Shown here piece after piece: positions 4,366 through 54,331 of a stretch of DNA of 64,000 bases (the first letter of the stretch is position 1; each line of letters starts with the position of its first letter). The DNA is from Propioniferax innocua (GTDB lineage Bacteria; Actinomycetota; Actinomycetes; Propionibacteriales; Propionibacteriaceae). Both the position numbers and the translations under genes were made by a program. The DNA lies in contig NZ_VFOR01000002.1 in NCBI RefSeq assembly GCF_006716235.1, positions 186,001 through 250,000 of the forward strand, given 5' to 3'. A model generated the notes under the pieces. It did no database searches. It saw nothing but the letters and a program-made list of their open reading frames with translations, and was not told the origin of the DNA.

Positions 4366-4659
4366 TCAGAAGATCATGGCGTTGACCTGCAGCAGGATCA
4401 ACACCAGGAACCACACAACCATGAAGCCGAGGTCGAGAGCTGCATTCCCGATCCGCACCGGCGGGATGATCCTGCCGAAGAAATTCAATGGCGGATCGGT
4501 GAGCGTGTAAATGGTCTCGGCGATCACGAGCATGATGCCCCGCGGACGCCACGACGGCGCGAACATCGGCACCCAGCTCAGAACCATGCGGGCGAACAAC
4601 ACGCACAGATACAGCGTCAGCACCGTGTTGATGATCTGTCCGAGCAACGACACGTGCAC
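4366..4659 (-). CDS. YggT-family membrane protein
   Basis: 97-aa protein with two hydrophobic spans (about residues 5-27 and 72-95) flanking the conserved stretch DPPLNFFGRIIPPVRIG, which identifies the YggT family. In Gram-positive bacteria this gene lies between sepF and divIVA, as here (12 nt after sepF), and is linked to division or envelope functions without a defined biochemical role. The family placement is secure; the function is inferred from position. Confidence 0.9.
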   Translation of the reverse strand: MHVSLLGQIINTVLTLYLCVLFARMVLSWVPMFAPSWRPRGIMLVIAETIYTLTDPPLNFFGRIIPPVRIGNAALDLGFMVVWFLVLILLQVNAMIF

Positions 4660-27106: not shown

Positions 27107-27130
27107 CGGTGTGACGGAGCCGATGATGAG

Positions 27131-27160
27131 GAAGGCCCGGAGCGTGCGCTCCGGGCCTTC
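27131..27160 (+). terminator. Terminator of the moxR operon
   Basis: A perfect 13-bp stem (GAAGGCCCGGAGC with its complement) around a 4-nt loop, 25 nt after the transglutaminase stop, followed by CGTATTT. A partial second copy of the right arm (GGGGCCTTCCGTATT) lies just downstream at about 27170-27184. Confidence 0.88.
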
Positions 27161-27317
27161 CGTATTTCAGGGGCCTTCCGTATTGATGCCTGTTCGTCGT
27201 GCGAGATCCCCGTATATCCCGCCCGTATCCATCCCGCAGGTGTCGATCCCATGCGGTGGGGTCGCGGCGCTGGGGCGTCCTCAGCCGGGTCGCCGTCAGC
27301 CGGTTTTTTCAGGTGGT

Positions 27318-35806: not shown

Positions 35807-35840
35807 CTGTGCCGGGTGCTCACTCGAGCACCCGGCACAG
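35807..35840. terminator. Terminator between putP and the convergent CYTH-CHAD gene
   Basis: A perfect 15-bp stem (CTGTGCCGGGTGCTC with its complement) around a 4-nt loop, starting 4 nt after the putP stop. It lies between two convergent genes and can act on both, though no long U-tract is present. Confidence 0.85.
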
Positions 35841-42241: not shown

Positions 42242-42314
42242 GTGACTCTCCTTGCGACGCGATCGGCACGAACCTGCCCACCAAGAGTAGAAGAACGCGC
42301 GTTCACTCCCCCAG

Positions 42315-42352
42315 CTCGACGTTGTGCCGTGACAGCCCGGCACAACGTCGAG
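42315..42352. promoter_or_regulatory. 15-bp perfect inverted repeat in divergent promoter region
   Basis: CTCGACGTTGTGCCG (42315-42329) and its exact complement (42338-42352) flank 8 nt. Beyond one mismatch, CCCCA/TGGGG extends the arms to about 20 bp. Both flanking genes point away, so a terminator makes little sense; an operator for a dimeric regulator or a structured leader of the plus-strand gene (start 42391) is more likely. Confidence 0.75.
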
Positions 42353-42390
42353 GTGGGGCGCGTGATGAGGCGTCCTGTTTGAATGGGTGC

Positions 42391-51239: not shown

Positions 51240-52052
51240 TCAGCGCCACTCCACCAATTCCAGGTAGGGGCTCGCCCGGATGACCTCTTCAGCGAATGCC
51301 GAGGCACTGGGCAGCAGGACACCGTGGATGTCCGCCAGGCACTGATGAACACGGCGGCCGGGCCAGTGTTCGGGCATCAACTCCGCAGGGAGGCCGCCAA
51401 GCTCCACGGTCCACGCGACCACCGGTCGAATGAGCCCATGGAGACGACGAAAAGCGCTCTCCGCGCCAAGGCCAGAGAGCTCGGGAACGGCGGCCTCCAG
51501 GTGTTCGCACAAACGCTCCCCCTCTTCGCGCACGCGACCCAGGGACCAGGCCCGGTTCGCGATGGCCCGCGCCGTGTCCACATCAGTGTCCAAGAATCCG
51601 GGCATGACCCCCAGCTCATGAATCTGTCCGGAAAGCGCGCTGCTCTGGTCGCTGGGCGACACCAGCACTCCGGGCCGGAGGGATCGGTACCCGACCCGCA
51701 TGGCCGCTGCTCGAAAGCGTTCCCGCGCGGTGCGCCGCGTTTCGGAGGTGTCGTAGATGAGAGCGTGCAGACGCCCGTCCCAGCTCGGCGGCTGCCCTCC
51801 GCCGCGGATCCGCTCGAAATTGGCCAACAGGTGCCCGGCCAAGCGATAGACCCCCACCCGACCGGTGCGCGAAAGAGCGAGAGAGCCACGGGAGACCATC
51901 CTGTTGAGCACTGAGCGATTGGCGGATTCGGTGAGATCCAACCGAGTCATCAGGTCGATCAGGATCGGCCCCGGAATCGCTGTGACATCAGCAACGGCCA
52001 AGCAGAACGGAGGTTTGTCGAACGCGGGATAATAACGCGATGGGCTCCGCAT
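51240..52052 (-). CDS. PaaX-like transcriptional regulator
   Basis: 270-aa regulator. The N-terminal winged helix (about 28-75) has LTRLDLTESANRSVLNRMVS-type recognition sequence (one residue differs: MTRLDLTE). WDGRLHALIYDTSETRRTARE, then RVGYRSLRPGVLVSP, is the diagnostic PaaX central domain, and a C-terminal helical domain completes the family length. PaaX proteins repress phenylacetate catabolism via phenylacetyl-CoA, but no paa genes are nearby, so the effector and targets here are unknown. ATG at 52052. Confidence 0.85.
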   Translation of the reverse strand: MRSPSRYYPAFDKPPFCLAVADVTAIPGPILIDLMTRLDLTESANRSVLNRMVSRGSLALSRTGRVGVYRLAGHLLANFERIRGGGQPPSWDGRLHALIYDTSETRRTARERFRAAAMRVGYRSLRPGVLVSPSDQSSALSGQIHELGVMPGFLDTDVDTARAIANRAWSLGRVREEGERLCEHLEAAVPELSGLGAESAFRRLHGLIRPVVAWTVELGGLPAELMPEHWPGRRVHQCLADIHGVLLPSASAFAEEVIRASPYLELVEWR

Positions 52053-52198
52053 GCCCAGAGACTATCCACGCATCAGGAGAAGCTCCCGGCCATCCAGGAT
52101 GGCTCCCATCACAACGGCAGTGGCTCCCAGCCCGGCCGCATCTGAACTTCTCGTCTCCAGCCATGACCACGTGGGGCAGATCTGCCTTCAGAAACAAA

Positions 52199-52222
52199 GA
52201 AACCCCGCCGTGGCGGGGTTTC
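52199..52222 (-). terminator. Terminator of tRNA-Ala
   Basis: A perfect stem GAAACCCCGCC with its complement around a 2-nt centre (effectively a 10-bp stem with a 4-nt loop), 7 nt beyond the tRNA 3' end. On the minus strand TTTCTTTGTTT follows, making this the best intrinsic terminator in the window. Confidence 0.9.
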
Positions 52223-52229
52223 TCTTCTG

Positions 52230-52302
52230 TGGAGCTAAGGGGATTCGAACCCCTGACCTCTTCCATGCCATGGAAGCGCGCTACCAACTGCGCCATAGCC
52301 CC
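52230..52302 (-). tRNA. tRNA-Ala (anticodon GGC)
   Basis: A 73-nt cloverleaf. Acceptor GGGGCTA pairs with TAGCTCC (one G-U), D-arm GGCGCAGTTGGTAGCGC, anticodon stem CTTCC/GGAAG with loop ATGGCAT (GGC), and T-arm AGGGG TTCGAAT CCCCT. Discriminator A; CCA is not encoded. Reads alanine GCC/GCT. Confidence 0.97.
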
Positions 52303-52450
52303 GTGGTCACAACCCGGGATATGGCACCCCGGAAGAACCGACCAGAGAACTTTAACCCAAACCGAACTCTTCACACAAATCCACGCCTCGCCGGCCTCCA
52401 AAGCTCCACTGCATTCCCTGCTCTGCCGGCCAGCATGCACACCTGCCCGA

Positions 52451-52519
52451 CCGAATGCAGCGTTTCATCCATGATCGTTTCGCTGGCGTTGATGATCATG
52501 GATGAAACGCTGCATTCGG
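52451..52519. repeat. 26-bp perfect inverted repeat at the 3' end of tag
   Basis: Left arm 52451-52476 and right arm 52494-52519 are exact reverse complements around a 17-nt centre. The right arm contains the last codons and stop of tag. No U-rich tract follows on the minus strand. It may be a large terminator of the proBA/nadD operon or a fossil of a mobile repeat. Confidence 0.93.
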
Positions 52520-53182
52520 CGGCTCACCGGGCCACACCCCCGAACTCCCACGGCGATGAGACCCCACCAGGTGCGTGTCAACGATCCCGATGGCCTCCAT
52601 CAGCGCGAACATCATGGTCGGCCCCACGAACGCGAATCCCTCGCTCTTCAGCGCCTTCGCAAGGGCGACCGATTCGGCCGACTGTGTCGGCACCTCCGCC
52701 ATCGTGTGTGGTCGCGGAGTCTCTGCGGGCCGGAAAGACCACACCAGGTCTGCCAGTCCCCCGCGTTCCCGCAGGCGCAGGGTGGCTCCGGCATTCTGGA
52801 TCGTCGCCAGGATCTTGGCCCGATTGCGGATGATCCGCGCATCGGCCAGAAGTCGGGCCACATCGGCTTCCCCGTAGCCCGCCACGAGGTCTGGTGAGAA
52901 ACCGTCGAAGGCCTCCCGAAACGCCGGCCGCTTGCGCAGGATCGTCGCCCACGACAGCCCCGACTGGAACGCCTCCAGGCTCAGCCGCTCGAACACCCCG
53001 CGCTCATCACGAACGGGCATGCCCCACTCGGTGTCGTAGTACTCCCGCAGCAGAGGGTTCGAAGCCGCCCACGCCGGGCGCGCCAGGCCATCGGCCCCTA
53101 CCACCACGCCTGCTTCGGCTGCCAGGCGACCCGTCTGCTCAGCAACCTCGCCATCACCGTTCGACGCAAGCCCCACCGTCAC
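52496..53182 (-). CDS. tag: DNA-3-methyladenine glycosylase I (zinc-site variant)
   Basis: 228-aa Tag-family base-excision enzyme for 3-methyladenine. The core EYYDTEWGMPV, LSLEAFQSGLSW with catalytic-site glutamate E70, ARIIRNRAKILATIQNA and FVGPTMMFALMEAIGIVDTH is unmistakable. Aligned by eye to E. coli Tag, three of four zinc ligands are missing: Cys4 is P36, His17 is Y49 and Cys179 is S208, while His175 is kept (H204). GTG start at 53182 overlaps the alkB stop (GTGA). The last residues are encoded in a 26-bp inverted repeat. Confidence 0.92.
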   Translation of the reverse strand: MTVGLASNGDGEVAEQTGRLAAEAGVVVGADGLARPAWAASNPLLREYYDTEWGMPVRDERGVFERLSLEAFQSGLSWATILRKRPAFREAFDGFSPDLVAGYGEADVARLLADARIIRNRAKILATIQNAGATLRLRERGGLADLVWSFRPAETPRPHTMAEVPTQSAESVALAKALKSEGFAFVGPTMMFALMEAIGIVDTHLVGSHRRGSSGVWPGEPPNAAFHP

Positions 53183-53826
53183 CCCTCCAAACCTGTCACG
53201 CGCAGGGTGATGTTGTATCGCCCCTGTTCCACACCGCAACCCTGCGGAGCCGTACCGGGAAACACCTTCACCACTCCGTGGTAGGCGAGTCGCACCGGTC
53301 CACCGAACACGAACAGGTCCCCCGACGCCAGCTCCAAGTCCTGATACGGCTTCCCACGGTTCTCGGTGTTCCCGAACCGGAACCGGCACCTGTCCCCCAC
53401 CGACAACGACACCACCGGCGCCGAGGCGCGCTCGTCCCGGTCCTGGTGCATTCCCATGCGGGCATCGGCCCCATACCAGTTCACCAGAGCCACATCAGGC
53501 TCGTACTCGGCATCCGATTCGCCCACGGCCTCCAGTGCCTGCCGGGCCAGACGCCCCATCCACGGCGGCACCTCCAGAACCCGCCGACCATTCACGTCCA
53601 CCGCTTCTCGCGTGTATGCGTAGGGGCGCCAGTGCCAGCCCAGACACACCATCTCGACGCTCATCGCATGCCCACGAATCCTGGGCGAGTGCGCGGGCAC
53701 CGGGCCCCGCATCCATTCACGGCATCGCGCGACCAACCATCTCTGCTGTTCGAGAGTCAGGAAGCCCGGCACATGATGGGCACCCTCCGGCAGAGGCACG
53801 GCCGTATCGAACAGCGGGTCAGTCAC
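53179..53826 (-). CDS. alkB: AlkB-type Fe(II)/2-oxoglutarate DNA dealkylase
   Basis: 215-aa dioxygenase that oxidatively removes alkyl groups from 1-methyladenine and 3-methylcytosine. Iron ligands H127-x-D129 (MHQDRDE) and H183 (AYHGVVKVFPG) are present, with 2-oxoglutarate-binding arginines R203 and R209 in RYNITLR. NWYGADARMGMH matches the NxYxxxxxxxxH family pattern. The GTG at 53826 lies 2 nt after the ogt stop, and the gene overlaps tag downstream, so the three repair genes form one translational unit. Confidence 0.94.
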   Translation of the reverse strand: MTDPLFDTAVPLPEGAHHVPGFLTLEQQRWLVARCREWMRGPVPAHSPRIRGHAMSVEMVCLGWHWRPYAYTREAVDVNGRRVLEVPPWMGRLARQALEAVGESDAEYEPDVALVNWYGADARMGMHQDRDERASAPVVSLSVGDRCRFRFGNTENRGKPYQDLELASGDLFVFGGPVRLAYHGVVKVFPGTAPQGCGVEQGRYNITLRVTGLEG

Positions 53827-54331
53827 GCAGCGAGCCCTCCATCCGCAGCAACCAGCGTTTGGCATCGAGTCCACCGCGGTAGCCACCCAGCCCGCCATCT
53901 GCCCTCAGTATCCGGTGACACGGCAACACGATCGGCAACGGGTTTGTGGCACACGCACTCGCCACCGCTCGCACGGCCCGTGGTCGCCCGACCATGGCTG
54001 CCAGTTCGGTGTAGGTCACCGTCTCCCCGTAGCCGACGCCGGTCAGCGCCAACTGAGTCTCGGCCCGGAAGCCGGATGCGCCATGGTCCAGATCCATCTC
54101 GAACTCACGGCGTTCCCCAGCGAAATATTCCTTCAGTTGCTCGATGGCCCTGTACACATGCTGTTCGGCGGCTTCGGTTCCGACGCCGGTCTCGGGGATG
54201 TCGTCGCCGACGCCGGTCTCGGGGATGTCGTCGCCGACAAAGGCGATCCGCATCAGGCCTTCCTCCGAGGCCACCAATCCCAGCTCCCCCACCGGAGTGG
54301 ACATGGCGCGATGGACCAGGCCGCGTTCCAT
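53819..54331 (-). CDS. ogt: Methylated-DNA--protein cysteine methyltransferase
   Basis: 170-aa suicide repair protein for O6-methylguanine. The acceptor cysteine is C138 in PIVLPCHRILR. YGETVTYTELAAMVGRPRAVRAVASA is the recognition-helix region (shortened), and GGLGGYRGGLDAKRWLL closes the domain. The N-terminal ribonuclease-like domain contains a duplicated nine-residue unit (GDDIPETGV at 33-50) from an exact 27-nt DNA repeat. ATG at 54331 forms TGATG with the upstream gene. The ogt frame runs 6 nt past the AlkB start region boundary, a tight joint. Confidence 0.94.
   Translation of the reverse strand: MERGLVHRAMSTPVGELGLVASEEGLMRIAFVGDDIPETGVGDDIPETGVGTEAAEQHVYRAIEQLKEYFAGERREFEMDLDHGASGFRAETQLALTGVGYGETVTYTELAAMVGRPRAVRAVASACATNPLPIVLPCHRILRADGGLGGYRGGLDAKRWLLRMEGSLRD
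54181..54234. repeat. 27-nt perfect tandem duplication inside ogt
   Basis: Two base-identical 27-nt units (54181-54207, 54208-54234), followed by 4 nt of a third. They encode nine residues each in the ogt N-terminal domain and keep the frame. Identity without synonymous change suggests a recent event. Confidence 0.94.

Follow-up and report, generated by a model that had tools for sequence, protein, structure and literature searches.

MITEs and ERIC sequences are small, non-coding intergenic repeats with inverted ends. In REPINs, as described in excerpts of PMC3116915, the inverted ends are invariant and enclose a less conserved spacer for which length and pairing are important, and compensatory changes are frequent. 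REP families of the GTAG and CGTC types are placed, in the portion of PMC3733652 that treats them, mostly between convergent and unidirectional open reading frames, and the CGTC families are reported there without a dedicated transposase. RepRanger treats U-less intergenic hairpins as REP candidates and counts 3,293 of them in Acidipropionibacterium thoenii (PMC12306157, in excerpt), which means that intergenic hairpins lacking a U-tract are, in themselves, already known in that family of bacteria; stem-loops at convergent gene ends are the subject of PMC1590033 (in excerpt).

Here, we analyzed 64,000 nucleotides of Propioniferax innocua DNA (the window), in which a 69-bp palindrome overlaps the end of tag. 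The palindrome is a member of a small family of repeats whose general type is known but which is not described in the literature searched. We consider it moderately probable that it is a copy of a lineage-specific, REPIN-like family of miniature palindromic repeats, in a genome with no match to the transposase of REPIN systems. Y1 transposases are the enzymes linked to REP and REPIN repeats; finding the same build where no Y1 transposase was detected raises the question of what else copies such hairpins, and the family offers 15 defined sites at which mobility and 3'-end function can be probed.

A perfect palindrome over the end of tag

The features of the locus are as follows.

52451 to 52519, no strand: 69-bp palindromic element of the AA type, the window copy of a family with at least 15 copies
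52451 to 52476, plus strand: left arm, 26 nt, CCGAATGCAGCGTTTCATCCATGATC
52477 to 52493, no strand: centre, 17 nt, diverged in sequence and constant in length across copies
52494 to 52519, minus strand: right arm, 26 nt; the minus strand encodes the end of tag (PNAAFHP and TGA)
52456 to 52514, no strand: 59-bp core from TGCA to TGCA, equal in width in 15/15 copies
52496 to 53182, minus strand: tag, DNA-3-methyladenine glycosylase I-like, 3' end inside the element, start codon uncertain
52229 to 52302, minus strand: tRNA-Ala (GGC), the next gene past the element when following tag in its own direction

The original prediction described a 26-nt perfect inverted repeat with a 17-nt spacer, one arm of which codes for the last residues and stop codon of tag, and both statements proved exact. 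The arms at 52451-52476 and 52494-52519 are 100% complementary and lie 17 nt apart, and the pair heads a list of 22 inverted pairs in the window, being also its longest perfect pair. When 40 order-1 Markov sequences of window length were simulated, the longest perfect arm reached 11–15 nt; with 15 genomic copies in addition, a chance palindrome is refuted, no point in its favour was found, and we give it a negligible probability.

On the minus strand, the codons CCG AAT GCA GCG TTT CAT CCA TGA lie in the right arm and encode PNAAFHP and the stop, the end of the tag open reading frame. The Tag protein matches PF03352 above the cut-off; its match to TIGR00624 (E 2.8e-60) covers residues 35–208 of 228 and, with 203.1 bits, does not reach the curated cut-off of 232.5. 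Of 19 loci, the Tag C termini of 12 relatives were readable, with tails ranging from none to about 25 residues. Since the TIGR00624 match ends at residue 208 of 228 and the tails are variable, the element affects the non-conserved tail only. The earlier suggestion that a mobile palindrome rewrote the C terminus of tag comes close, in that a dispersed repeat does account for the final seven codons and stop of the gene; its mobility we infer.

Two further observations concern tag and its surroundings. The encoded Tag lacks three of the four residues kept in 12/12 readable relatives (C..YHD..H....C in the relatives, P..YYD..H....S here); in E. coli Tag, these conserved residues serve as zinc ligands. 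On the minus strand, 52496-54331 holds three alkylation-repair genes in a row, namely those for an Ogt-type methyltransferase, an AlkB-like protein and Tag, and the Ogt-type protein (53819-54331, minus strand) carries a tandem duplication, GDDIPETGV-GDDIPETGV.

A repeat family of constant width

A DNA search of the genome itself (2.79 Mb, six contigs) returned 24 matches at 13 places, and an arm pattern (outer arms, fixed width, up to 3 mismatches) located 14 places. A covariance model built from 14 copies found 15, with best E values from 1.5e-22 to 1.2e-10 and the next candidate at E 0.05. Fourteen of these 15 matches score well by construction, the model having been built on them, and they include the window copy, its top match at 88.4 bits (model R1); the fifteenth, C5:31158-31226, was new through the model, at E 1.2e-10. 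The family count is a lower bound, at least 15, because 150 of 2318 first-look candidates were scored by the model. All 15 copies share a 59-bp core bounded by TGCA on either side (TGCAGCGTTTSA...TSAAACGCTGCA), and the whole unit measures 69 bp. This width is fixed by construction in the arm pattern; BLAST, a variable-gap scan and the covariance model, which permits insertions and deletions, were able to reveal other widths and did not.

In a single-arm search (up to 1 mismatch), 24 of the 25 matches fell inside 14 of the 15 copies. An apparent solo arm at C1:615090, located inside long open frames and without a partner arm, was rejected, leaving the genome with no solo arm at up to 1 mismatch. 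The nearest relative of the window copy, C2:737229-737297, is identical to it at 61 of 69 positions, and no pair among the copies is closer. A best pair of 61/69 gives no sign of current mobility, which counts against reading the family as a mobile repeat.

The genome search bears directly on the view that the palindrome is an intrinsic terminator or processing hairpin specific to the proBA-nadD-tag transcript. Its position at the 3' end of tag suits that view. However, the unit recurs at 14 places beside unrelated genes and has no U-tract, and a dispersed family of one width is not the private terminator of one operon. We therefore regard this locus-specific role as refuted by the multicopy result, and very improbable. 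A single conserved copy in all relatives, with mapped RNA 3' ends, is what the original prediction would have taken to indicate a plain terminator; on copy number the opposite was seen, with at least 15 copies here and none found in relatives beyond single chance-level matches.

The unit consensus approximates CSNAN-TGCAGCGTTTSATCCATGATC-N17-(inner motif or other)-TSAAACGCTGCA-NTNSG. Seven arm columns, C(-5), T1, G2, C3, G5, T10 and A12, are invariant in the 30 arms of the 15 copies, the outer columns reading approximately RCSNAN-TGCA. An inner motif, TCCATGATC, is present on at least one arm in 15/15 copies, on both arms in five (AA copies, including that in the window) and on one arm in ten (AB copies). 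Mean pairwise identity across the 15 copies is 0.95 for the A-arm core, 0.80 for the outer B arm, 0.40 for the inner B arm and 0.42 for the centre, the last against 0.26 expected from composition. This contrast indicates that the ends are conserved and the centre is drifting. The centres thus share an ancestor and have since diverged with no insertion or deletion.

The arms pair in all copies, to a varying degree: 79.9% of cells were paired, compared with 31.0–44.5% when the arms were slid against each other (14 copies). For the 26-pair helix of these 14 copies, 19 cells were changed on both arms, as against 10.3 ± 2.4 after shuffling, and the covariation score was 0.166, as against 0.112 ± 0.013; in neither case did any of 500 shuffles reach the observed value, and these covariation counts are inflated by kinship of the copies. 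Pairs with change on both sides (6, against 4.4 when shuffled; 32/500 as high) were weak among the five measures. In the C5 copy, both outer arms are altered jointly (TGCAGCATCTGA / TCAGATGCTGCA). Conversely, the centre and inner B arm of the ten AB copies show no folding advantage over shuffled versions of themselves (z from -2.3 to +1.8), so pairing across the whole unit is not maintained there, which argues against a hairpin throughout; the low z values of the five AA copies arise because their inner arms were among the shuffled letters. The joint arm changes could be explained by selection for pairing or by template-switch repair of imperfect palindromes (PMC8794818, in excerpt), and the data do not separate the two; either process may also account for the perfect arms of the window copy.

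Set beside the REPINs of P. fluorescens SBW25 (PMC3116915, in excerpt), the family is alike in its conserved inverted ends, compensatory changes and extragenic dispersal: it has two inverted conserved ends and a spacer that together form a hairpin, and the spacer is of constant length and less conserved than the ends. It differs from them in that the genome has no PF01797 match, the arms lack GTAG, no solo arm occurs at up to 1 mismatch, and there are at least 15 copies here compared with 430 REP doublets in SBW25. With the GTAG and CGTC REPs it shares the state of a short intergenic palindrome found mostly between convergent and unidirectional genes, but neither foot was found among the 30 arms, and the stem of 5–13 bp given for those repeats in the relevant part of PMC3733652 contrasts with the 69-bp unit and 26-nt arms here. 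Like MITEs and ERIC, the family is small, non-coding and intergenic, with inverted ends; unlike for MITEs, no target-site duplication was seen. No longer element with the same ends was found in the assembly. Finally, the stem-loops of RepRanger and PMC1590033 are likewise intergenic and near stop codons, but they are counted by shape, whereas here one fixed-width sequence is repeated.

Placement of the copies and a possible role at 3' ends

With genes called by codon usage, seven of the 15 copies lie between convergent, five between co-directional and three between divergent gene pairs; the window copy, between tag and tRNA-Ala, is co-directional. At C1:1303417, C1:393364 and C2:939050 the start of the downstream gene was called inside the element, these starts being uncertain. 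For the RNase H gene (C1:1303437-1304462), the start codon may fall inside the adjoining copy.

Twenty-six neighbour proteins were scanned against profiles and had no common function; the left neighbour at C2:939050 was outside the scanned set, and Pfam gave no match at E 1e-6 for either of the proteins flanking C1:1092848. The profile-based assignments were as follows.

Uroporphyrinogen methyltransferase and precorrin-6A reductase
Antiporter-like protein and AAA ATPase
TroA-like receptor and MarR regulator
DprE2 and a ThiD/PdxK-type kinase
GlpK (glycerol kinase) and a Meth_synt_2 protein
GyrB-like protein and TPR protein
IlvD and SNF transporter, a 36-codon open reading frame separating the transporter from the element
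Cytidylyltransferase and phosphoglucomutase
FMN oxidoreductase and RNase H
MFS transporter and enoyl-CoA hydratase
Further neighbours: 3-hydroxyacyl-CoA dehydrogenase, DUF559 nuclease, MsrB (SelR) and CobQ-like protein

A regulon was considered and rejected, the cobalamin genes (uroporphyrinogen methyltransferase, precorrin-6A reductase, CobQ-like) being mixed with those for GlpK, GyrB-like protein, IlvD, MsrB and phosphoglucomutase.

Alternatively, the strict architecture of the unit could reflect binding by an architectural or regulatory protein, which would recognize two outer half-sites at fixed spacing and an inner site in one or both arms. Half-site columns invariant in 30/30 arms, invariant spacing and an inner motif present at least once in each of the 15 copies are consistent with such a site, and strict length with a drifted centre would also be expected of protein-bound DNA. 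However, the scanned neighbours share no function, the convergent bias is unlike that of operators, and coordinated arm changes outside the invariant columns are unexpected for a duplex site. The residual homology of the centres fits sites copied from a common ancestor better than sites that arose independently. We consider a protein site distinctly unlikely.

As originally noted, a U-tract is absent from the flanks of the palindrome, and the same holds for the family. The 30 flanks, taken on both strands, show no T-run: T averages 2.0 per 10 nt, with a maximum of 5 and a genome value of 1.7, and a T-rich tract directly 3' of the hairpin, as in an intrinsic terminator, was not found for the family. 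A consensus terminator scan of 51800-53300 gave 0 sites, which is weak evidence since the scan also missed a T-tailed hairpin at 52196-52226; this hairpin with its T-rich tail, recognized by eye, lies downstream of tRNA-Ala. No Rfam 15 model matched the element above its gathering score; the only models that overlap it, all below threshold, are for microRNA precursors.

The convergent copies nevertheless invite another reading, namely that the copies form a selected family of 3'-end hairpins working in both directions, as U-less terminators or as ends that protect mRNA, and have spread through their usefulness at convergent ends. Convergent pairs hold 7/15 copies but only 5/39 window gaps of at least 15 bp (one-sided p 0.0014, with a small reference), and the copies there lie 6–83 bp from stop codons. 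Among element-free gaps, a perfect stem of at least 9 bp with a loop of up to 12 was present in 3/11 convergent, 4/49 co-directional and 1/9 divergent gaps; the three convergent hairpins have stems of 14–19 bp and unrelated sequences. Furthermore, six of the seven element-bearing convergent gaps have no other perfect stem of this kind, the seventh (C5) having one of 17 bp. These points favour selection of hairpins at gene ends. On the other hand, eight of the 15 copies lie elsewhere, three of them between divergent genes; there is no T-run on either strand; 8/11 element-free convergent gaps show no such hairpin; pairing alone leaves the invariant arm columns of copies with mismatched arms unexplained; and REP repeats have a similar gene-end bias (PMC3733652, in excerpt). 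We judge this explanation of the family unlikely, while a general role as a 3'-end hairpin would be plausible at some copies.

Several other structures were recorded. The unrelated perfect hairpins of convergent gaps, with stems of 14–19 bp, are at 27130-27161 and 35807-35840 of the window and at 4488-4599 of locus L015 (the locus of C1:392402-393432); the two in the window have no T-run in the following 12 nt. Between divergent genes at 42309-42358 lies a 21-nt inverted repeat, 95% complementary, with an 8-nt loop. Beside the C5 copy, C5:31075-31158 holds a near-tandem duplication of TGTTCAGGGCCGTTG and the separate 17-bp-stem hairpin.

Distribution and mobility

DNA searches found the repeat in 0/56 relatives; there was no congener among the genomes searched, and records of close kin may be absent from the collections. 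Model R1, run with stricter filters, gave one weak match in each of 4/116 other genomes of the bacterial family. Three of these (G096, G099 and G135), which lie in long open frames with high third-position GC, were taken as chance, as was the fourth (G098), a shorter hairpin that has AGCGTTTCAT in its arms, occurs at a single locus and was found in 0/18 genus mates. A second, strict pattern matched 1/197 other family genomes, again at the G098 hairpin, which is weak evidence of absence because this pattern detects 4/15 of the genome's own copies. An exact 21-mer scan, which detects 12/15 own copies, found three stretches in genome contigs and one in viral contigs, none of which has a second arm. 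The best E was 0.2 among plasmids (1 record) and phages (4 records), and no two-armed match occurred in the species genomes, viral contigs, plasmids and phages searched. The literature searched does not describe the repeat, and four arm 14-mers were unmatched in text; the excerpted P. freudenreichii genome paper (PMC2909200) describes IS elements and CRISPR, and no such repeat family.

The Y1 transposase profile PF01797, the one transposase family searched, had 0 matches at E 0.001 in this genome (98.98% complete, six contigs); in a control it matched 5/14 named genomes, including E. coli. As PF01797 has no match, we describe the family as REPIN-like in its build without classing it as a REPIN. 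Around the copies, a target-site duplication was not evident: 12/15 showed only 4–6 nt matches at differing offsets, and 3/15 none.

On the REPIN-like reading that we prefer, a unit of 69 bp, conserved at its two inverted ends and variable in a centre of fixed length, would have been copied to at least 15 gene boundaries. It may have spread through a single-stranded hairpin intermediate, both ends being recognized by a trans-acting enzyme, and copies would persist where they are least harmful or where they function as hairpins at 3' ends. In the case of tag, the unit lies on the gene end, such that the gene now stops inside an arm. That the family is mobile without a RAYT/Y1 transposase, through an unrecognized enzyme, we put forward tentatively and consider somewhat unlikely.

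Two copies, C1:392402-392470 and C1:393364-393432, bracket one DUF559/MTES_1575 nuclease gene, located between msrB and the gene for 3-hydroxyacyl-CoA dehydrogenase. Their starts are 962 bp apart, they are mutually inverted with the A arms pointing inward, and no copy is closer to either than its partner (54/69); a pair of copies within 1 kb would be expected in about 8% of uniform random draws. The pair, placed as if at the ends of a composite unit with its own nuclease, is the sole, weak lead to a mobiliser.
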